Shown piece after piece: positions 6,146 through 14,818 of a DNA stretch of 64,000 nt. A program made the position numbers and the translations under genes. Below the pieces are notes generated by a model, which saw nothing but the letters and a program-made list of their open reading frames with translations, made no database searches and was not told the origin of the DNA. Source of the stretch: Pseudomonadota bacterium (lineage in GTDB: Bacteria > Pseudomonadota > Alphaproteobacteria > SHVZ01). The stretch lies in the NCBI GenBank assembly GCA_016195085.1, contig JACQAG010000048.1, positions 62,001 through 126,000 on the forward strand, written 5' to 3'. The stretch's first letter is position 1. Each line of letters opens with the position of its first letter.

Positions 6146-6415
6146 TCACGTGCGCCAGAACGACTTGTAGATTTCCCTTTCCGCATTCAGGCGCGACAGG
6201 CCGATGTCGGCAAGCTCGCGGTCGCCCCGCGTCGCCAGATGGTGCCGGCTGCTGGCGCGCTCCTGCCATGTCAGCATCGTCTTCCACAGACGACGCATCC
6301 ATAGGCTTGGCCGGAACAAGGCCGCCGCCGGATCCCAGGACCGGACCTGGGTGCGGTCCACACCGAGCGTGCCGGGTAAGAGCGGATGGTCGATAAACTG
6401 CTGTTGGGTGCACAT
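6146..6415 (-). CDS. DUF1127 domain small protein
   Basis: 89-residue protein whose C-terminal half is a DUF1127 (YjiS-like) domain: an arginine-rich helix followed by RGDRELADIGLSRLNAEREI and a terminal aromatic/basic KSFWRT. Family members in alphaproteobacteria are small regulators linked to phosphate, carbon or RNA metabolism; the role here is unknown. The N-terminal 40 residues are longer than usual and no good ribosome-binding site precedes the ATG at 6415, so translation may begin at an internal methionine such as that of MRRLWKTML. It stands alone between the binding protein and the SOD-rhodanese gene. Confidence 0.7.
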   Translation of the reverse strand: MCTQQQFIDHPLLPGTLGVDRTQVRSWDPAAALFRPSLWMRRLWKTMLTWQERASSRHHLATRGDRELADIGLSRLNAEREIYKSFWRT

Positions 6416-6466
6416 CCTATGACTCGCTTTCTTGAGTTGTGATGAAATCGCCGCCTATGGCGACGA

Positions 6467-7507
6467 TCAGGTCTCGATCGCGCTCTGCTCGGGCGCCTTC
6501 AACACCCGCTCGCCGCCCGCCGCGTACCAGGCGGACAAGCCGCCGCGGACGTATTTCGCATCGAAGCCCCGCTCGCGGAGTGCGGCGGTGACGCTGCAAC
6601 CGACATGGAAGCCATAGGCGCAGTAGACGAAGACGGGGGTATCGGCTGAGAGCTCCTTCGACCACTCCTCGACGCGGTTCGGATCGCGCCAGCACGCTCC
6701 CTGCATCATGTCGACGTTGCGCGAGAAGTAGTGTTTGGGGCGGGCATCGAGCACCTGTACCCGCCGCTCCCCTTTGGCGAGCTCGGCCGATAGCTCCTCG
6801 ATGGAGATCGAGGGCAGGTTGAGCCGCGCGATCGCCGCGGCATCGGAGCCGGCCGAGAGCCCCTTGACGAAGATCGGGGGTGCCGCCTCGGCGGCCGGAT
6901 CCGGCCTTGGCGGCGCCGTGCCGCTCGCGTCCATGAGCCGGTCTTCGACCACCTTCCAGTCGATGTTGCGCATGAAGGCATCGATATAGGCGGTGGCGTT
7001 CGCGCCGAAGTCCATGTGATAGGCGTGCTCGTACATGTCGAGCGCCAGAATTGGCAACGCGTCGACCAGGGCCTGGGTGTGGTCGAAGCCGACCTGGATA
7101 TGAAGCCGGCGGTCGCGCCGCGCGTAGCTCAGCAGCACCCAGCCGGAGCCGCCGCGCATCGCCTGGGCGGCAGCCACGAATTCCTGCCGCCAAGCGTCGA
7201 CCGCGCCGAAATGCTCCTCGAGCAAAGGTGCTATGGACTGGGTCAGCTTGCCGTCGCCGCCCAGATTGCCGAAGTAGAGCTCGTGCAGCGCCACCGAGCC
7301 CATGGCGACGAGCTCCTCGCGCTTGAGGGCCCGGAGCAGGTAGCCCTGCGTCTTGGCGAGGTCGAGGCGATCCAGCTCGTCCCGGATCGAATTCAGGGAC
7401 CTGACGGCACCCCCGTAGTTGTTCTCGTAATGGCTCACGATCAGCCGTTCGGACAATCCGTTCAGCATCCAGGGCCGGCAGGCGATGGGGAGGATGGGCT
7501 GGCGCAT
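6467..7507 (-). CDS. Superoxide dismutase (Fe/Mn) fused to a rhodanese domain
   Basis: 346-residue fusion. Residues 1-195 are a Fe/Mn superoxide dismutase with metal ligands H26 (SHYENNYGG), H75 (ALHELYF), D157 and H161 (DMYEHAYHMDFG). After a Pro/Ala-rich linker (about 196-228), residues 232-335 form a rhodanese domain with predicted active-site Cys296 in VYCAYGFHVG. No signal peptide is visible, so it should be cytoplasmic. The start at 7507 has AAGGAGA nine bases upstream. It diverges from a LysR regulator whose promoter region holds two perfect palindromes. Dismutation plus sulfur transfer in one chain suggests handling of superoxide and a thiol or persulfide by-product; the rhodanese substrate is unknown. 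Confidence 0.9.
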   Translation of the reverse strand: MRQPILPIACRPWMLNGLSERLIVSHYENNYGGAVRSLNSIRDELDRLDLAKTQGYLLRALKREELVAMGSVALHELYFGNLGGDGKLTQSIAPLLEEHFGAVDAWRQEFVAAAQAMRGGSGWVLLSYARRDRRLHIQVGFDHTQALVDALPILALDMYEHAYHMDFGANATAYIDAFMRNIDWKVVEDRLMDASGTAPPRPDPAAEAAPPIFVKGLSAGSDAAAIARLNLPSISIEELSAELAKGERRVQVLDARPKHYFSRNVDMMQGACWRDPNRVEEWSKELSADTPVFVYCAYGFHVGCSVTAALRERGFDAKYVRGGLSAWYAAGGERVLKAPEQSAIET

Positions 7508-7588
7508 GGAGGTCTCCTTGAACTTGCGATGGCGCGCCTGGGGCGGCGCCAAGGAGACAGGGAAATAGGACCGGAAAGCCTTGCCGAC

Positions 7589-7625
7589 AAAGCATGCTTT
7601 CTCTAGCCTGCCTGAGAATTTCTCA
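7589..7625. promoter_or_regulatory. Two palindromes between SOD-rhodanese and LysR genes
   Basis: AAAGCATGCTTT (7589-7600) is a perfect 12-bp palindrome and TGAGAATTTCTCA (7613-7625) a perfect 13-bp one. Both sit between the divergent starts at 7507 and 7639. The second fits the LysR-type T-N11-A rule and ends 13 bp before the regulator start, suggesting autoregulation and control of the fusion gene. Confidence 0.55.
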
Positions 7626-7638
7626 TGAAGTCGCCCGC

Positions 7639-8553
7639 ATGCTCCGCCGCCTGCCGCCCTTGAACGCGCTGAGGTCTTTCGAGGCTGCCGCCCGGCATGA
7701 GAGCTTCACCCGGGCGGCCGAGGAGCTGTTCGTCACCCAGGGTGCGGTCAGCCATCAGGTCAAGGCGTTGGAGACGGAGCTCGGGGTAAAGCTGTTCAAT
7801 CGCGAGCGCCAGCGCCTGGTGATCACCGAGGCAGGAAGGCAATATCTCGGCGTCGTCCGCGATGCGCTCGACCGGATCGCGCTGGGGACGGAACGCCTCT
7901 TGGAGCGGCAGACATCGGGCGTGCTGACGGTCAGCACCTCGCCTGACTTTGCCGCAAAGTGGCTGGTCAATCGTCTCGGCGGCTTCTCGGAGGCCCATCC
8001 GGGGATCGACCTCAGGATCTCGGCCGCCATGCATCACGTCGACTTCGCACGCGAGGACGTCGACCTAGCCGTCCGCCACGGCGACGGCAATTGGGCGGGG
8101 CTCCACGTCGAGCGCCTCTGCACCGATCAGCTCTTCCCGGTTTGCAGCCCCAAGCTCCTGACCGGGCGTCATCGGTTGAGCGAGCCCGCGGACGTGCTGA
8201 GGTTTCCCGTGCTGCACCTCGACGATCGCACGGAGTGGCCGCGATGGCTGGATGCCGCCGGCGTGGCCGATGCCGAAGTCACGCATGGTCCGGTCTTCAA
8301 CCGGGCGAGCATGCTGATCGATGCGGCCATCGATGGCCAAGGTGTGGCGCTCGCCCGCACCTCGCTGGCGGCTTGGGATCTCATCAACGGTCGCCTCGTC
8401 CGGCCGTTCGCCACGGCCTTGCGGCTGTCGAGGTTCTTTTGGATCGTCTGTCCCAAGGCGACCTCCATGCTGCCGAAGATCGCGACCTTCCGCGCCTGGC
8501 TCTTGGCGGAAGCTGCCGAGGATGTGCGGCGCTTGAAGGCGCTCGGTCCTTGA
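7639..8553 (+). CDS. LysR-family transcriptional regulator (GcvA-like)
   Basis: 304-residue LysR regulator. The N-terminal winged HTH is MLRRLPPLNALRSFEAAARH through SFTRAAEELFVTQGAVSHQVKALE, typical of the GcvA/AmpR branch; the substrate-binding domain follows from about residue 90. The frame is open upstream to 7594, but MLRRLPPLNALR is the usual family start, so 7639 is chosen. It diverges from the SOD-rhodanese gene across 131 bp containing two palindromes and converges with the secreted lectin-fold gene. It most likely controls the divergent SOD fusion, perhaps in response to oxidative or sulfur stress. The effector is unknown. Confidence 0.88.
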   Translation: MLRRLPPLNALRSFEAAARHESFTRAAEELFVTQGAVSHQVKALETELGVKLFNRERQRLVITEAGRQYLGVVRDALDRIALGTERLLERQTSGVLTVSTSPDFAAKWLVNRLGGFSEAHPGIDLRISAAMHHVDFAREDVDLAVRHGDGNWAGLHVERLCTDQLFPVCSPKLLTGRHRLSEPADVLRFPVLHLDDRTEWPRWLDAAGVADAEVTHGPVFNRASMLIDAAIDGQGVALARTSLAAWDLINGRLVRPFATALRLSRFFWIVCPKATSMLPKIATFRAWLLAEAAEDVRRLKALGP

Positions 8554-8574
8554 ACCCGAGCGTTTCGCCGGCGG

Positions 8575-9216
8575 TCATGCCGCCGGGGTGATGACCACAT
8601 CGCGGAACGCTGTCACCGAATCCGCCTTGGTCCAGAGCCCGACCTTGCCGGCGGCGAAGCGCCGGTCGCGGTGGTCGATGAGAGGCTTGTCGTCGAGCCA
8701 TCCCTGGATGCGCTCGCCGGTCGCAGCGATGCGCACGGTATGCCATTGGCCGAGAGCGGGTGCGGCGACGTTGGCAGAGGCGATCTCGCGGCGCCCGCGA
8801 TCGTAGGTGTAAAGCCGGAAATTGCCCTCGAGCGCATTGGCGCGGACGACATAGTAACGCCCCTCGGCAAAGCGGAACACCACGCCCCCCGAGGCATCCT
8901 CCCGGCCCGAGATCGGCTTGAAGCGCATGGAAACCTCGAGATCGGCGAAGGGCCCCGCCGGAGCGGCGATGACGTTGAACTCGTTCTTGGTGGCGCGCTG
9001 TACCAGCGCCGGACCCGGATCGCCCGGCAGATCCTCGACCGCCCATTGGCCGGCGACGACCGCCCAATCGGCGATGCTGCGGCTCTGGAAGTCGTAGCGT
9101 GTTGGCGACGCCGCCATCGCCGAGCGGATGCCAGTGCGTGAATATCCGAGGCCGATGGCGGCGCCGGAGAGCGTCGCGGCGAGGGCGCCGCGGCGGGTCA
9201 TGCGAGGACGCTTCAT
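8575..9216 (-). CDS. Secreted concanavalin A-like (DUF1080/LamG-type) protein
   Basis: 213-residue protein with a Tat-like leader (RMTRRGALAATLSGAAIG) followed by a beta-sandwich pattern: DFQSRSIADWAVVAGQWAVE, GGVVFRFAEGRYYVVRANAL, LGQWHTVRIAATGERIQGWL and AAGKVGLWTKADSVTAFRDV. These match the DUF1080 / laminin-G-like jelly roll of family-16-related sugar-binding or hydrolase proteins. No catalytic pair could be assigned. It is the last gene of the operon that begins with chromate transporter genes, 42 nt after the exported SOD. Both exported products would lie outside the cytoplasmic membrane. Its place in a metal/oxidative operon is odd. Confidence 0.7.
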   Translation of the reverse strand: MKRPRMTRRGALAATLSGAAIGLGYSRTGIRSAMAASPTRYDFQSRSIADWAVVAGQWAVEDLPGDPGPALVQRATKNEFNVIAAPAGPFADLEVSMRFKPISGREDASGGVVFRFAEGRYYVVRANALEGNFRLYTYDRGRREIASANVAAPALGQWHTVRIAATGERIQGWLDDKPLIDHRDRRFAAGKVGLWTKADSVTAFRDVVITPAA

Positions 9217-9258
9217 TTGCCAGTCTCCAGGTCTTGCGTTGACCGTCGAAGGTCTCTT

Positions 9259-9984
9259 TCAGCTTTCTGCGCTGTACTTGGCGTGCAGCCTTGTCACGTT
9301 CTCCCAGCGGATGACCTGCATGAAGGCATCGACATAGGCTGCGGCCCGTGCGCCGTAGTCCATGTGATAGGCATGCTCGTACATGTCGAGGGCCAGGATC
9401 GGGCGGCCATTCGCGAGGTTCATGGTGTGGTCGGCGGCCCAGGTGTTGATCAGTCGCTTGTCACGCGGCGACCAGCATAGGAGTCCCCAGCCGGAGCCTC
9501 CGCCCTGGGCCTTGCCCATGGCCGCAAACTCCGCCTGCCAGCGATCATAGCCGCCGAAATCCCGGTCGATCGCCTCGGCCAGCGCGCCCGATGGTCTGCC
9601 CCCACCCTCGAGGCCGTCGAAATAGACCTCATGCAGGATCATCGAATTCGCGGCCACCAGCTCCTCGCGCTTCAAGCCGTTGACGGTGAAGACCGGGGCG
9701 CCGGCCCAATCGAGGCCGGTGAGCTGTGCGCTAATGGCATTCAGACGCTTCACCGCGCCGCTATAGTTGTTCTCGTAGTGGCTCGTCAGCAGCTTCTCCG
9801 ACAGGCCTTTGATCGCTTTGGGATCGAAGGATAGCGGCTTGATGTCGTAGGTCATGGGCTTGAATCCTGTGTTGGATGCGGTTTGGGCGAGAGCGGTCCG
9901 CTCGGTGAGCGCAGCCACCATCGCTGCGCCGGCAATGAGGGCGCTGGCCCGTATGAGATCGCGTCGTTCCAATCCATGGGTCAT
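9259..9984 (-). CDS. Exported Fe/Mn superoxide dismutase (ChrC-like), Tat signal
   Basis: 241-residue Fe/Mn superoxide dismutase with a twin-arginine leader (ERRDLIRASALIAGAAMVAA) predicting folded export. Metal ligands are H69 (TSHYENNYSG), H118 (ILHEVYF), D200 and H204 (DMYEHAYHMDYG). AGGAGG precedes the ATG. It follows the chromate transporter stop by 16 nt. In the Ochrobactrum TnOtChr chromate determinant, chrC is an SOD gene next to chrA, so a role in removing superoxide formed during Cr(VI) reduction is plausible, here outside the cytoplasm. It is a paralogue of the SOD-rhodanese fusion 1.7 kb away. Confidence 0.9.
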   Translation of the reverse strand: MTHGLERRDLIRASALIAGAAMVAALTERTALAQTASNTGFKPMTYDIKPLSFDPKAIKGLSEKLLTSHYENNYSGAVKRLNAISAQLTGLDWAGAPVFTVNGLKREELVAANSMILHEVYFDGLEGGGRPSGALAEAIDRDFGGYDRWQAEFAAMGKAQGGGSGWGLLCWSPRDKRLINTWAADHTMNLANGRPILALDMYEHAYHMDYGARAAAYVDAFMQVIRWENVTRLHAKYSAES

Positions 9985-10000
9985 GTCAGTCCTCCTTCCG

Positions 10001-11212
10001 TCATCGGGCCAATCGTTCGATACGGTCCCACGTGCTGCTCTTCATAAATCCGATCACAGCACCGCCTAACATCAATGGAAGCGGTCCGACGTTCCGCAGC
10101 AGCATGAATCCGACGGTGAGCGCAAGAAGACACCAAGCGAATGGATCGGGAGCTGCATGCGGAGCCATCTGAACGATCGAGACGGCAAGCGCACCGATCA
10201 CGGCCGGTCCGACCCCACGCATGAATGCCTTCAGCCACTGCAGGTCTTTCATCTTCCGAAGCAATGGGAGGATCGAGAGCATCATCAAGAAAGACGGCAG
10301 AAAAATCGCCGCCGCGGCGACCGCAGCCCCCTGCGCGCCGGCGAGCTTGAACCCAACGAAGGCCGCGAGCATCAGGATCGGTCCCGGCGTGAGTTGACCG
10401 AGGGCGAGGCCGTCGATGAATTCCTGCTGCGTCAACCAACCCGACTGATTGACGACCTGGTCCTGAATGAAGGCGAGCATGGACAGCCCACCGCCGAAGC
10501 TGAACGCGCCAACCTTGAGGAAGAACGTTCCCAGCTCCCACAATCGGGGCAGGTCCGGATTGGATTGCCGTGCAAGGCCGGCGATCGGCATGGTCGATGG
10601 GACGACCAGGAGGTCGACCGCGACGTAGGCGGCAGCGGCAGCGATCAGAAGGAGAAGCGACATCGCGCCCCGGCGCCGCGCGTGGAACAGAGCCATTCCG
10701 ATACAGCCGGCGGCAAAGAGCGCTGTCACGAGGCCGACCGACGTAAACTGCAGAACGGAAGCCGCAGCGATGAGGATCGCGATTTGCGAGCGCTCTTTGA
10801 TCGTGGCTCTTCCTAGACGGTAGATCGAGGCAGCAAAGATGCCGACAACGACCGGTCCGATCCCGTAGAACGCGCTTTGCGAGGCCGGTAGCGCCCCGAA
10901 AGCAACGTAAGCGGCCGTGAGCAGGAGCATGATCAGAAAGGCCGGCAGAATGAAACAAACGCCGGCGAGGATACCGCCGGGCAGGCCCGCCTTAGCGTGG
11001 CCGATGAGTATGCCGAGTTGGGTCGCGCCAGGCCCGGGCAGCATGTTGACGAGCGCGAGGCCTTCGACGAATTGCAGCTTCGAGAGCCACTGCCGCTTTT
11101 CCTGAATTTCCGTTTGCATGATGCCCATGATGGCCGGCCCACCATAGCTCATGGCGCCGATCTTCAGAAAGACACGGGCAATCTCCGCCAGACCGGCCCG
11201 CCGTTCGCTCAT
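10001..11212 (-). CDS. chrA: Chromate transporter, two CHR domains
   Basis: 403-residue inner-membrane protein of the CHR superfamily made of two homologous halves. Each starts with an amphipathic segment and a FGG/YGG motif (VFLKIGAMSYGGPAIMGIM, TFFLKVGAFSFGGGLSMLAF) and has a PGP motif (ALVNMLPGPGATQLG, ALGQLTPGPILMLAA). ChrA proteins expel chromate in exchange for, or together with, other ions. Two start codons lie close together; the ATG at 11212 (MSERRAGLAE) has AGGAG seven bases upstream, whereas that at 11218 would sit one base from it, so 11212 is preferred. It is the third gene of the operon starting at 12870. Confidence 0.88.
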   Translation of the reverse strand: MSERRAGLAEIARVFLKIGAMSYGGPAIMGIMQTEIQEKRQWLSKLQFVEGLALVNMLPGPGATQLGILIGHAKAGLPGGILAGVCFILPAFLIMLLLTAAYVAFGALPASQSAFYGIGPVVVGIFAASIYRLGRATIKERSQIAILIAAASVLQFTSVGLVTALFAAGCIGMALFHARRRGAMSLLLLIAAAAAYVAVDLLVVPSTMPIAGLARQSNPDLPRLWELGTFFLKVGAFSFGGGLSMLAFIQDQVVNQSGWLTQQEFIDGLALGQLTPGPILMLAAFVGFKLAGAQGAAVAAAAIFLPSFLMMLSILPLLRKMKDLQWLKAFMRGVGPAVIGALAVSIVQMAPHAAPDPFAWCLLALTVGFMLLRNVGPLPLMLGGAVIGFMKSSTWDRIERLAR

Positions 11213-11264
11213 GGGCATGCTCCTGACGATGGCATCGCGTCCGGAAACGATCCTCCGAAAACGA

Positions 11265-11684
11265 TTACGACATAGGAACGGTTTCAGTATGAAGACGGCG
11301 CAGCAGCGCCTCGACCCGGCCGACGATGAACCTGCGCGCGACCGCATAGTCGTCGCTGACGGCCGGACAGTCGTCCCAGCGCTCGATGGCGACTCCGGGC
11401 GGGGCCAGCGCCGTCAGATCGCAGCCGAAGGAGACGATGTGCGTGGCCCGCGCCAGCGCGTCCTTGCTGAGGCGCTGGGGCCGCTTGCCGCGGACGTCGA
11501 TGCCCTCGCCGAGCAATCCGTCGATGACTTGTTGCGGGATCTCCGCGTCGGGTTCCGGGCCCGACGTCGTGGCCGCGAGCGGAATGCCGCCCTGCAGGGC
11601 CAATCGGTTGCAATATTCGGCGGCAATCAGGCTCTTTGCCGCCCCATGCAGGCAGACAAAAGCGATGGCGTGGGGAGCACGCAT
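11265..11684 (-). CDS. Low-molecular-weight phosphatase / arsenate reductase-like protein with altered P-loop
   Basis: 139-residue member of the LMW protein tyrosine phosphatase / thioredoxin-type ArsC fold. The N-terminal P-loop is C11-LHGAA-K17-S, i.e. CX5K where the family has CX5R. A second cysteine in VSFGC (C88) matches the ArsC resolving-Cys region, and RWDDCPAV (about 102-109) stands where the general-acid Asp loop lies. AAAGGA precedes the ATG. It is sandwiched between two chrA genes (13 nt and 52 nt gaps), so a substrate related to oxyanions such as arsenate or chromate is likely. With Arg replaced it may act as a redox or sensor protein rather than a phosphatase. Confidence 0.75.
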   Translation of the reverse strand: MRAPHAIAFVCLHGAAKSLIAAEYCNRLALQGGIPLAATTSGPEPDAEIPQQVIDGLLGEGIDVRGKRPQRLSKDALARATHIVSFGCDLTALAPPGVAIERWDDCPAVSDDYAVARRFIVGRVEALLRRLHTETVPMS

Positions 11685-11697
11685 GTATTTCCTTTCG

Positions 11698-12870
11698 CTA
11701 CTGCACCATGACCCAGGTCGGGTTCAGGATCGGGAAGGCGATGAGACCGATAGCGGCGGTGACCGCCATCAGAAGCGGGTTGGATAGCTTCTTCCAATAG
11801 AACAGGGCCGCCAGGGAGGCGAGCCCGATGGCGACTGTCAGCCAGTCGCCGATCGCGATCTTGCCCAGGAGGATCGAGGCGCCGGCGATGGTGCCGATGG
11901 CTGCGGCATAGGCGCCTTTGACGAAGCCTTGAACGTTCGGATTGCCGCGGTGTCGGATCAGGATCGGTGCCACGATCAGCACCAGGAGGAAGGACGGCAG
12001 GAAGATGCCGACGGTGGCAACGAGCGAGCCCCAGAACCCGGCGACGAGAAAGCCGACGAAGGTCGCGGTGATCACCACCGGCCCCGGACTGATCATGCCG
12101 ATGGCGACTGCAACCAGGAACTGGCGCTCGTCGAGCCATGCGGCCTGCTGCACCAGCCCCTTCTCGAGGAAGGGAACGATCACCAGCCCGCTGCCGAAGG
12201 TGAGCGAGCCCGCCTTGAGGAAGAACCAGCCGAGCTGAGCGATGGTAGAAGCGCTGGCCGGGGTCCCGGTCACGCCGATGCTGAGCGGGAGCGCGGCCAA
12301 TGCCGCTTCCGGCGGAACCTTCCCGCCGCGAAACAGCGTGCCGTAATAGAGCATGCCGGCGATCCCGGCCGCGATGAACAGGATCGCAATTTCCGCCTCC
12401 AGGACCACGGTCACCACGAAGCAGATCGCCGCGATGGCCCATTGCGGCCAATCCTCCATGCCGAGCTTGGAGAGCCGCCAGCAGGAATGCAGGATGAGCG
12501 CGATCACCGCCGGGCTCACGCCATAGAAGATCGCCGTCACCCAGGAGAGGCCGCCGAAATAGACATAGAGCGCGCCGAGCCCGGCGACGATGACGAAATT
12601 CGGCAGGATGAAGCACCAGCCGTCGGCCCAGGCGCCCCAGAAGCCGCAGCGAAGATAGGAGATGTAGATCCCGACCTGGATCGCCAGCGGCCCCGGCATC
12701 GACTGGCAGACGGCGATGGCATCGCGCATTTCTTCGCGGGTTAGCCATTGGCGCTCGGTCACCAGCTCCCGCTCCATCTGGCCGACCAGTGCCACCGGCC
12801 CGCCGAAGCCAAGCGTCCCCAGCTTCAGGAAGTAGCCGACAAGTTCAGAAATGCGTCCGCGCTCGGCCAT
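11698..12870 (-). CDS. chrA: Chromate transporter, two CHR domains (second copy)
   Basis: 390-residue CHR-superfamily permease, full-length two-domain type. Signature segments are YFLKLGTLGFGGPVALVGQM and VCQSMPGPLAIQVG in the N-half and WFFLKAGSLTFGSGLVIVPF and AIGMISPGPVVITA in the C-half. It is only distantly similar to the other ChrA in the same operon, so this is not a recent duplication. It is first in the leftward operon chrA / LMW-phosphatase-like / chrA / sod / lectin-fold. No chrB regulator or chrF repressor is seen nearby. The cargo could be chromate or another oxyanion. Confidence 0.88.
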   Translation of the reverse strand: MAERGRISELVGYFLKLGTLGFGGPVALVGQMERELVTERQWLTREEMRDAIAVCQSMPGPLAIQVGIYISYLRCGFWGAWADGWCFILPNFVIVAGLGALYVYFGGLSWVTAIFYGVSPAVIALILHSCWRLSKLGMEDWPQWAIAAICFVVTVVLEAEIAILFIAAGIAGMLYYGTLFRGGKVPPEAALAALPLSIGVTGTPASASTIAQLGWFFLKAGSLTFGSGLVIVPFLEKGLVQQAAWLDERQFLVAVAIGMISPGPVVITATFVGFLVAGFWGSLVATVGIFLPSFLLVLIVAPILIRHRGNPNVQGFVKGAYAAAIGTIAGASILLGKIAIGDWLTVAIGLASLAALFYWKKLSNPLLMAVTAAIGLIAFPILNPTWVMVQ

Positions 12871-13283
12871 GGGTCATGCCCCCCGTTCGAAAACACCTGG
12901 AAATCGTAATGATGCGGGGCCGCTGGACGCCGGCAAGCACGCGCATGCTGCGGCGAGCGCGGCTGCGTCTCCGGCACCGGTTCGGCCTGTCGTCGATAGC
13001 GGTGATCTGTGGATCACGATGCCCATGCGCCCAGCCCTCGATCTTCGCGAGTGATGGGCAGCGCTTGGACGGAGCACCGTCTTGGGACGCCGGGAGCCTG
13101 CCAACCCCGACTTTTTATAGATTAAGCCGGGCTCCCATGGAGATCAAGCCCGGCCGCCCCAACCGGGACAAAACGGCTCCCGATGATCAATCGCTTATCC
13201 AGTCGGATCAGCGACTTGCCGATGTCCCGCTGTCCCAGTCCCGGGCACGCGCGGGGCGGGACAGCCATGGACTGGATCCAAGC
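12871..13283. other. Intergenic region upstream of the chromate operon; two hairpins, no gene
   Basis: 413 bp with no convincing coding sequence on either strand. It must hold the leftward promoter of the chrA operon. Two inverted repeats stand out: GCCGGGCT / AGCCCGGC around 13126-13155, and GTCCCGC / GCGGGAC around 13226-13264. Either could act as a transcript end or a palindromic element. A T-rich stretch (CTTTTTATAG) lies near 13110. Confidence 0.4.
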
Positions 13284-14591
13284 CTACCCGCCCGATGCGG
13301 CCGCGCGCGCCATCAATCGACCACGCATCGGTTTCAGTACGAACAGCGCCAAGAGGCCGGTCAGGATGTCCATGGCGATCACCAGACCGAACACCGGCAT
13401 CCAGCTGCCGGTCCCCTCATAGATCATGGCGGCAACCGGGGCGCCGAGGATCGAGCCCACACCCTGCGCCATATAGAGAAAGCCGTAATTGGTGGTCGCG
13501 TAGGTGGAGCCGAAGGTATCGGTCAAGGTCGAGGGGAACAGCGAGAAGATCTCGCCCCAGCCGAAAAACACCAGACCGGACAGCACGATCAGCAGAAACG
13601 GATCGGTGCGGTACTGGAGCATCAGGAAGATCGCCGCACCCTCGAGGATGAAGGCGATCCCCATGGTGTTCTCGCGGCCGATGTGGTCGGAAACCCAGCC
13701 GAAGAACGGCCGCGTCAGCCCGTTGGTGATGCGGTCGAAGGTCAGCGCCGCCGGGATTGCGGCCAAGGTCATGCCGAGGATGACGACGGTCGTCTTGGCA
13801 TCGATCCCGAACGATCGGGCAAAGCTGGTGAACTGCGTGATCACCATGAGACCGCCGGTGGACATCATCGACATCATGATGAACAACAGCCAGAAGGTCG
13901 GCGTTTTCAGCATCTCGCGGGGCGTGGCGCCCTCTGTCGCCACGGCGCCGGGGCGCGCCGGCGGTGCGGCGACTTCGCCTTCCTTGGGAGAGCGCAGCAT
14001 GAGCGCACCCACCAAGCCGATAGCGGCAAAGATCGCGCCGAAGACGACCAGCGTCCGTTGGTAGCCCGAGGCTTTCAGCATGTCGTCGATCGGGAATGTC
14101 GTGAGAATGGCGCCGAAGCCATAGCCTGCCGCGACCACGCCGGTGGCGAAGCCGCGCCGATGCGGGAACCATCTGACCATCAAACCGATGATGCCGATGT
14201 AGACGATGCCCGTTCCCACACCGCAGAGGAGTCCGTAGGTCGCGTACAGCCCCCAGAGCGTGGCGATGGTCGAGGACGCGATCCAGCCCGCACCGCTCAT
14301 CAGCGCGCCCAGGCCGATCAGGATCTTCGGCCCCAGCTTCTCCACGAGAAAGCCTTGCAGCGGCGAGAGCCATGTCTGCAGCACGATGAGAAACGTGATC
14401 GTCCATTGCACCTCGGAGAGAATGGCACCCGTGGTCTTCTGGAACGATGGCACGAACAGCGTCCAGACATATTGCGGGCTCGAGATCGTCATCATGACGA
14501 TGAAGCCGAACGCGAGCTGCATCCACGCCGCAGACCTGGCGGCGGTCGCGTCGCCCCGAGAAGCGGTTTCGATTGTTTGGATGTGTGCCAT
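13284..14591 (-). CDS. oxlT: MFS transporter, oxalate/formate antiporter (OxlT) type
   Basis: 435-residue major facilitator with about 12 membrane segments. It shows the OxlT-family features: N-terminal FGFIVMMTISSPQYVWTLFV, VQWTITFLIVLQTWLSPLQG, the cytoplasmic motif MVRWFPHRRGFATGVV, and in the second half TNGLTRPFFGWVSDHIGREN. OxlT exchanges external dicarboxylate oxalate for internal formate, but many homologues carry other mono- or dicarboxylates. The start at 14591 (MAHIQTIETA) has GGGAAGG upstream. No oxalyl-CoA decarboxylase or formyl-CoA transferase gene is nearby, so the substrate is uncertain. Confidence 0.82.
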   Translation of the reverse strand: MAHIQTIETASRGDATAARSAAWMQLAFGFIVMMTISSPQYVWTLFVPSFQKTTGAILSEVQWTITFLIVLQTWLSPLQGFLVEKLGPKILIGLGALMSGAGWIASSTIATLWGLYATYGLLCGVGTGIVYIGIIGLMVRWFPHRRGFATGVVAAGYGFGAILTTFPIDDMLKASGYQRTLVVFGAIFAAIGLVGALMLRSPKEGEVAAPPARPGAVATEGATPREMLKTPTFWLLFIMMSMMSTGGLMVITQFTSFARSFGIDAKTTVVILGMTLAAIPAALTFDRITNGLTRPFFGWVSDHIGRENTMGIAFILEGAAIFLMLQYRTDPFLLIVLSGLVFFGWGEIFSLFPSTLTDTFGSTYATTNYGFLYMAQGVGSILGAPVAAMIYEGTGSWMPVFGLVIAMDILTGLLALFVLKPMRGRLMARAAASGG

Positions 14592-14818
14592 CTTGCCTTC
14601 CCTGCTTATTCGCCGTGCAGATGCATCGCGCAGGGTAGAGCCGCAAGGATTATGCCACCGCGAGAGCCCGCGGCGGGACGTGCGCAATCAACGGATTGCG
14701 ATTGCTGCCCATCGGTTCAGGATTCGGCGCATGCATTTGGTCGCGAGCCGATGGGGCAACAAACTGCCTGATTTTTGGGCTTATCCTGCGCGAGGACGGG
14801 TTCGGGACTCCGATGGCG

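Follow-up and report, generated by a model that had tools for sequence, protein, structure and literature searches.

The locus lies within a 64,000-nt stretch of DNA, hereafter the window, whose ORF list places five ORFs on the minus strand at 8575-12870. These ORFs and two adjoining genes are as follows:

11698..12870, minus strand: ChrA1, a full-length chromate transporter of 390 aa (PF02417, two domains, 1e-81; TIGR00937)
11265..11684, minus strand: LMWP, an ArsC/LMW-PTP-fold protein with the P-loop CLHGAAKS (weak PF01451 match; ArsC profile, 1e-13; AF2 model)
10001..11212, minus strand: ChrA2, a second, divergent full-length chromate transporter of 403 aa (PF02417, two domains, 5e-79)
9259..9984, minus strand: Fe/Mn SOD of the ChrC type with a twin-arginine leader, predicted to be exported (PF02777, 2e-27)
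8575..9216, minus strand: DUF1080-type beta-sandwich protein with a CBM66-like fold and a twin-arginine leader, predicted to be exported (PF06439, 2e-8)
7594..8553, plus strand: LysR regulator of the GcvA subfamily (PF00126/PF03466; NF008352 over its cut-off)
6467..7507, minus strand: SOD-rhodanese, a leaderless ChrC-ChrE fusion (Sod_Fe_C, 2e-23, and Rhodanese, 2e-7; NF033833, ChrE, 4e-21, below its cut-off)

An earlier note on this DNA had described a compact five-gene order on one strand with gaps of 13-52 nt, and the ORFs bear this out: from ChrA1 to the DUF1080-type gene, the gaps are 13, 52, 16, and 42 nt. The limits of 8575-12870 that it drew are too narrow, however, as they leave out the SOD-rhodanese and LysR genes at 6467-8553. 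The LysR gene is convergent with the operon, 21 nt from the operon end, and divergent from the SOD-rhodanese gene; its true start is probably at 7639, and the SOD-rhodanese ORF can begin at 7552. A scan of positions 6300-13400 returned 12 terminator-like sites (4.5 expected), none of which lies wholly inside any of the four gaps of the five-gene run. The five genes have a GC content of 62–69%, close to the 66% of the window. Upstream of them, on their strand and at a distance of 413 nt, a gene at 13284-14687 of the window encodes an oxalate/formate-type MFS antiporter (TIGR04259 over its cut-off). An ABC transporter encoded at about 2-6.1 kb was considered as part of the module and rejected: genes for a solute-binding protein, a permease, and an ATPase occur in chr loci on plasmids of Sphingopyxis and Pedobacter (L073:8554-11887 and L077:2441-5740) and in those of Cupriavidus, but the solute-binding protein of the window is unmatched there.

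The two transporters are, as the earlier note had stated, divergent and full-length: both have two PF02417 domains and exceed the TIGR00937 cut-off, and they share 33–34% identity. For ChrA2 the mechanical ORF runs from 11347, and an ATG with a ribosome-site-like sequence is present at 11212. ChrA1 is 45% identical to the ChrA of Cupriavidus metallidurans CH34, and its orthologs in other genomes (70–77% identity) adjoin LMWP or ChrC. In a tree of 38 rows, in which some long branches leave the deeper joins unsure, ChrA1 clusters with LMWP- or ChrC-linked orthologs from Alphaproteobacteria and Rokubacteria (support 100/99); the sister of this cluster is the group that contains CH34 ChrA (joint support 100/99). 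ChrA2 and its Rokubacteria counterparts, at 52% identity, form a deep clade of their own (100/100). ChrA1 is rare: when 385 genomes from the class were sampled, only one other had a close homolog, and there the neighbors are genes for a ChrC-type SOD and a ChrB-type protein. A third ChrA of the genome, encoded on contig C60 with a ChrB-C gene, is placed elsewhere on the tree. The absence of chrB and chrF that had been reported is true locally, with a ChrB-C gene adjoining the third ChrA elsewhere in the genome; a genome-wide search for ChrB_C finds only contigs C60 and C13 and nothing in the window, and a search of the whole genome finds no DUF1259 (ChrL). The LysR gene stands where other loci have ChrB. 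The locus therefore contains chrA and the chrC-type SOD/chrE rhodanese of a chr determinant and lacks chrB (or ChrB_C/chrF), and given that chrB is missing locally we regard it as a variant and not as a textbook member.

The exported SOD of the earlier note is supported by a visible twin-arginine leader, ERRDLIRASALIAGAAM, together with the Sod_Fe_C match, and this Tat-like leader type is common to the homologs in L014, L015, and L045. The core of the protein is 71% identical to CH34 ChrC over 185 aa. Alignment to a solved SOD places the metal ligands His, His, Asp, and His in the motifs SHYENNY, LHEVYF, and DMYEHAY, the first of which is common to CH34 ChrC and most of the chr-linked SODs examined. 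In the SOD-rhodanese, the SOD part shares 52% identity with ChrC of CH34 and the rhodanese part 38% with ChrE of that strain, and a homolog of the fusion (68%) adjoins chrB/chrC/chrE/chrF-type genes in L046. This fusion is probably cytoplasmic; with a leaderless SOD-rhodanese and a leader-bearing SOD, the strain therefore encodes ChrC-type SODs of both kinds. Homologs of the LysR regulator (73–75%) are encoded beside a SOD-rhodanese (L048), LMWP and DUF1080 (L061), and ChrB-ChrA-LMWP (L063). Genes for a TauE/SafE-type permease were also observed within chr loci, next to SOD and DUF1080 genes (L052:5785-6528 and L094:8249-8971). ChrC of Ochrobactrum tritici is an Fe-SOD predicted to be periplasmic, and ROS levels under chromate are higher in chrC mutants (PMC4779226); an exported ChrC is therefore not without precedent.

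The Tat-like lectin-fold protein proposed for the last gene of the run is likewise upheld, by a match to 3keto-disac_hyd (PF06439; 2e-8, 35 bits, above the cut-off of 26.8) and a twin-arginine leader, TRRGALAATLSGAAI. Its model has a CBM66-like, concanavalin-like fold with CBM66 (4b1m) as the best Foldseek match and, since this match is a binding module, a predicted binding role is as likely as a hydrolase. Homologs occur in 11 plasmid records. ChrA and ChrB-type genes are found in six of the seven plasmid neighborhoods examined (C. metallidurans Ni-2, Cupriavidus USMAA2-4, Sphingopyxis, Methylobacterium, Burkholderia vietnamiensis, and Pedobacter), and the seventh, from Nocardia, pairs the homolog with DUF1259; two further plasmid records duplicate the Sphingopyxis and Burkholderia strains or species already counted and have the same pairing by coordinates. 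Among 15 other alphaproteobacterial matches, 5 are in chr loci and 10 are outside recognizable chr loci. By eye, the leaders of these homologs vary (Tat-like, Sec-like, or lipoprotein-like), and a leader is present in all but a fusion protein in L050, described below. We rejected the DUF1080-type protein as a new chr component, as a similar exported protein, Cep, is encoded in a chr operon (PMC7060636).

The protein first described as LMW-phosphatase-like does have the ArsC/LMW-PTP fold, as both profile and predicted fold confirm, with a Pfam match to LMWPc below the cut-off (4e-4, 21 bits; cut-off 23). Its closest profiles are ArsC and not PTP, and the best PDB match of its AF2 model (pLDDT 88.9) is Cg_ArsC2 (3rh0; Foldseek E 9e-8). 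The P-loop retains the catalytic cysteine, C11, which is invariant among 15 aligned homologs, and has a lysine in place of the arginine; across these 15 sequences, the arginine position of CX5R is occupied by lysine 13 times and by asparagine twice. The arsenate reductase Cg_ArsC2 likewise has a lysine where most have an arginine; LMWP may therefore still be catalytic, and we rejected the Arg-to-Lys replacement as a firm sign of a dead enzyme. Based on the model, the P-loop likely holds tetrahedral oxyanions.

When 84,980 species genomes were scanned with a three-member alignment, 15 LMWP loci emerged, which with those of genomes G357 (L014) and G280 (L015) make a set of 17 gathered from sequence alone. 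ChrA is encoded within about 3 kb of LMWP in 15 of the 17; of the remaining two, L061 has DUF1080 and LysR, and L015 has a YncE-type gene together with a SOD of the ChrC type. Members are found in Rokubacteria, Bradyrhizobium, another Hyphomicrobiales MAG, and one alphaproteobacterial MAG, and in L049, L050, and L056 the neighbor is a CH34-type ChrA (56–59% identity). The main branch has the P-loop CLHG[SA]AKS. Three LMWP-like proteins of Bradyrhizobium have hydrophobic N-terminal leaders and the P-loop CLHG[SV]V[KN]S (L061:7908-8396, L062:7905-8405, and L052:12256-12777) and, judged from their sequences, probably constitute an exported branch of the family. In L050:7986-8951, LMWP and DUF1080 domains form one ORF with no signal peptide, on one MAG contig in which an assembly fault is possible. 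LMWP is truncated in L014 (9433-9609), and in L015, from the same genus, it is left as a C-terminal piece behind a rhodanese-like start (9698-10072); given that these two related genomes keep the SOD, LMWP can be lost and is dispensable there. In Rokubacteria an ABC exporter-type pair of 620 and 661 aa is encoded after LMWP (L060:8138-11808; also L054 and L056-L059).

These data bear on two alternative roles for LMWP. It could act in regulation as a phosphatase, or serve as a scaffold in the form of a dead pseudo-phosphatase, in either case devoid of oxyanion chemistry and within an otherwise ordinary chr locus, as its membership of the LMW-PTP superfamily, the replaced P-loop arginine, and the sub-threshold Pfam score would allow; we consider this unlikely given that the closest profiles are those of ArsC and that LMWP adjoins ChrA across phyla, and the leader-bearing Bradyrhizobium versions make a family-wide function in intracellular signaling less likely. 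Alternatively, the oxyanion exported by the CHR pumps could be another one, such as arsenate, vanadate, or sulfate, with LMWP acting as an arsenate reductase of the ArsC type or as a thiol-transferase for oxyanions. CHR substrates are known in part only, and LMWP shares the fold, the P-loop cysteine and, with Cg_ArsC2, the P-loop lysine of ArsC arsenate reductases; however, it differs from these in having CLHGxAKS instead of an Asn-containing loop, in its identity of about 20%, and in being linked to ChrA and not to arsenic efflux. No arsenite efflux gene adjoins LMWP in the loci examined, and the sole ACR3 gene met lies at one end of a Pedobacter plasmid region in which LMWP is missing. The partners in LMWP loci are instead ChrB, ChrC, ChrE, ChrL, and ChrK-type genes, and the chr genes of Arthrobacter sp. 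FB24 are induced by chromate, most having little or no arsenate response (PMC2751784). This alternative appears rather improbable to us.

The earlier note had named no conservation of the cluster in relatives, together with no co-transcription, as the outcome that would refute it, and half of this applies: the exact order, sought in other genomes, was found only at the window locus, whereas its pieces recur, each of the five families being found in loci with ChrA, ChrB, or chrL/chrK accessory genes. The order ChrA1-ChrA2-LMWP is present in Rokubacteria L054, L057, and L060, and in L054 and L060 it faces a divergent ChrB-DUF1080-DUF1259-ChrB_C-YVTN run; the ChrA1-LMWP pairing recurs in other Alphaproteobacteria, and DUF1080 in plasmid chr loci. 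A chance neighborhood, in which a pair of generic pumps and exported proteins of unrelated kinds share no function, would agree with an exact order found only here and with DUF1080 proteins in many other contexts, but it is very hard to reconcile with compact same-strand spacing and with linkage repeated in separate lineages and plasmids.

The locus is related in different ways to several known systems. It resembles the system taken for reference, chr1 of CH34 pMOL28 (chrB-A-C-E-F ... DUF1259 - YncE), in ChrA1, whose group is sister to the ChrA clade of chr1, in the SOD, and in the SOD-rhodanese, which corresponds to ChrC and ChrE fused; it differs in lacking chrB and chrF and in having a second ChrA and an exported SOD, and the pMOL28 stretch examined lacks the LMWP and DUF1080 genes of the window locus. 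With TnOtChr of O. tritici (chrB, chrA, chrC, chrF) it shares the idea of SODs in two compartments, ChrF being a second SOD that is predicted to be cytoplasmic (PMC4779226). Unlike TnOtChr, the window lacks chrB/chrF and adds ChrA2, LMWP, and DUF1080, and its leaderless SOD is a rhodanese fusion. In the chrB2A2CF-cep-chrL operon of Cupriavidus neocaledonicus STM 6070, cep, which encodes an exported concanavalin A-like protein (PMC7060636), is like the DUF1080 gene when compared by description; that operon has a single ChrA and a chrB that is present though frame-shifted, and no LMWP is reported for it. Genes of the chrL/chrK type, which accompany LMWP and DUF1080 in Rokubacteria and are absent from the window locus, recall chrJ, chrK, and chrL of Arthrobacter sp. 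FB24, where exported accessory proteins contribute to resistance and the chrL/chrK-type genes are required for high chromate resistance (PMC2751784). For both the SOD and the lectin-fold protein, exported forms encoded in chr operons are therefore already on record and are not new here (PMC4779226, PMC7060636).

We consider it likely, from the sequence comparisons, that the locus is a variant chr determinant that combines chromate efflux (or that of a similar oxyanion), superoxide defense on both sides of the membrane, and a P-loop accessory protein that handles oxyanions. This assignment is based on the family matches and the sister relationship of ChrA1 to the CH34 ChrA clade; on the adjacency of LMWP homologs to ChrA, including CH34-type ChrA in Rokubacteria; on the Rokubacteria loci L054 and L060, which join ChrA1-ChrA2-LMWP with ChrB and chrL/chrK-type genes; on DUF1080 in plasmid chr loci and the LMWP–DUF1080 fusion in L050; and on four gaps of at most 52 nt without a whole terminator-like site. 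Against it are the lack of chrB locally, the order that is not conserved, the truncation of LMWP in two relatives, and the alphaproteobacterial DUF1080 matches outside chr loci. In the mechanism that we posit, chromate or a similar tetrahedral oxyanion would enter by sulfate uptake and be pumped outward by ChrA1 and ChrA2. The cytoplasmic SOD-rhodanese and the external SOD would remove superoxide from chromium redox cycling on both membrane sides, and LMWP would act in the cytoplasm, where its Cys/Lys P-loop pocket would bind the oxyanion and might also reduce it or conjugate it to a thiol. A role in the envelope, probably via glycan binding, would fall to the DUF1080 protein, and LysR would probably control the gene set. 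The oxyanion defense acting partly outside the cytoplasmic membrane that the earlier note envisaged is thus favored by comparative genomics, as the families recur in chr-type loci; the exact five-gene order is not conserved, and the exported ChrC and lectin-fold parts had precedents.

Chromate resistance is usually described in terms of ChrA efflux and poorly understood accessories. The least-known part of the locus is the ChrA-linked ArsC-fold family with the P-loop CLHGxAKS, which appears to be unstudied; judged by the hit lists of a literature search that covered few subscription papers, LMWP is nowhere described as a chr gene. One speculative and on balance doubtful proposal is that this family is ArsC-derived and dedicated to chromate, capturing, reducing, or thiol-conjugating it in the P-loop and partnering ChrA as ArsC partners arsenite efflux pumps, with the secreted branch doing likewise outside the membrane. 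Our comparison adds to chromate resistance an ArsC-fold family that accompanies ChrA in different phyla, with a fold suited to the binding of tetrahedral oxyanions. The comparison points to a testable counterpart of arsenate reductase in chromate defense and supports the idea that this defense takes place partly outside the cytoplasmic membrane.
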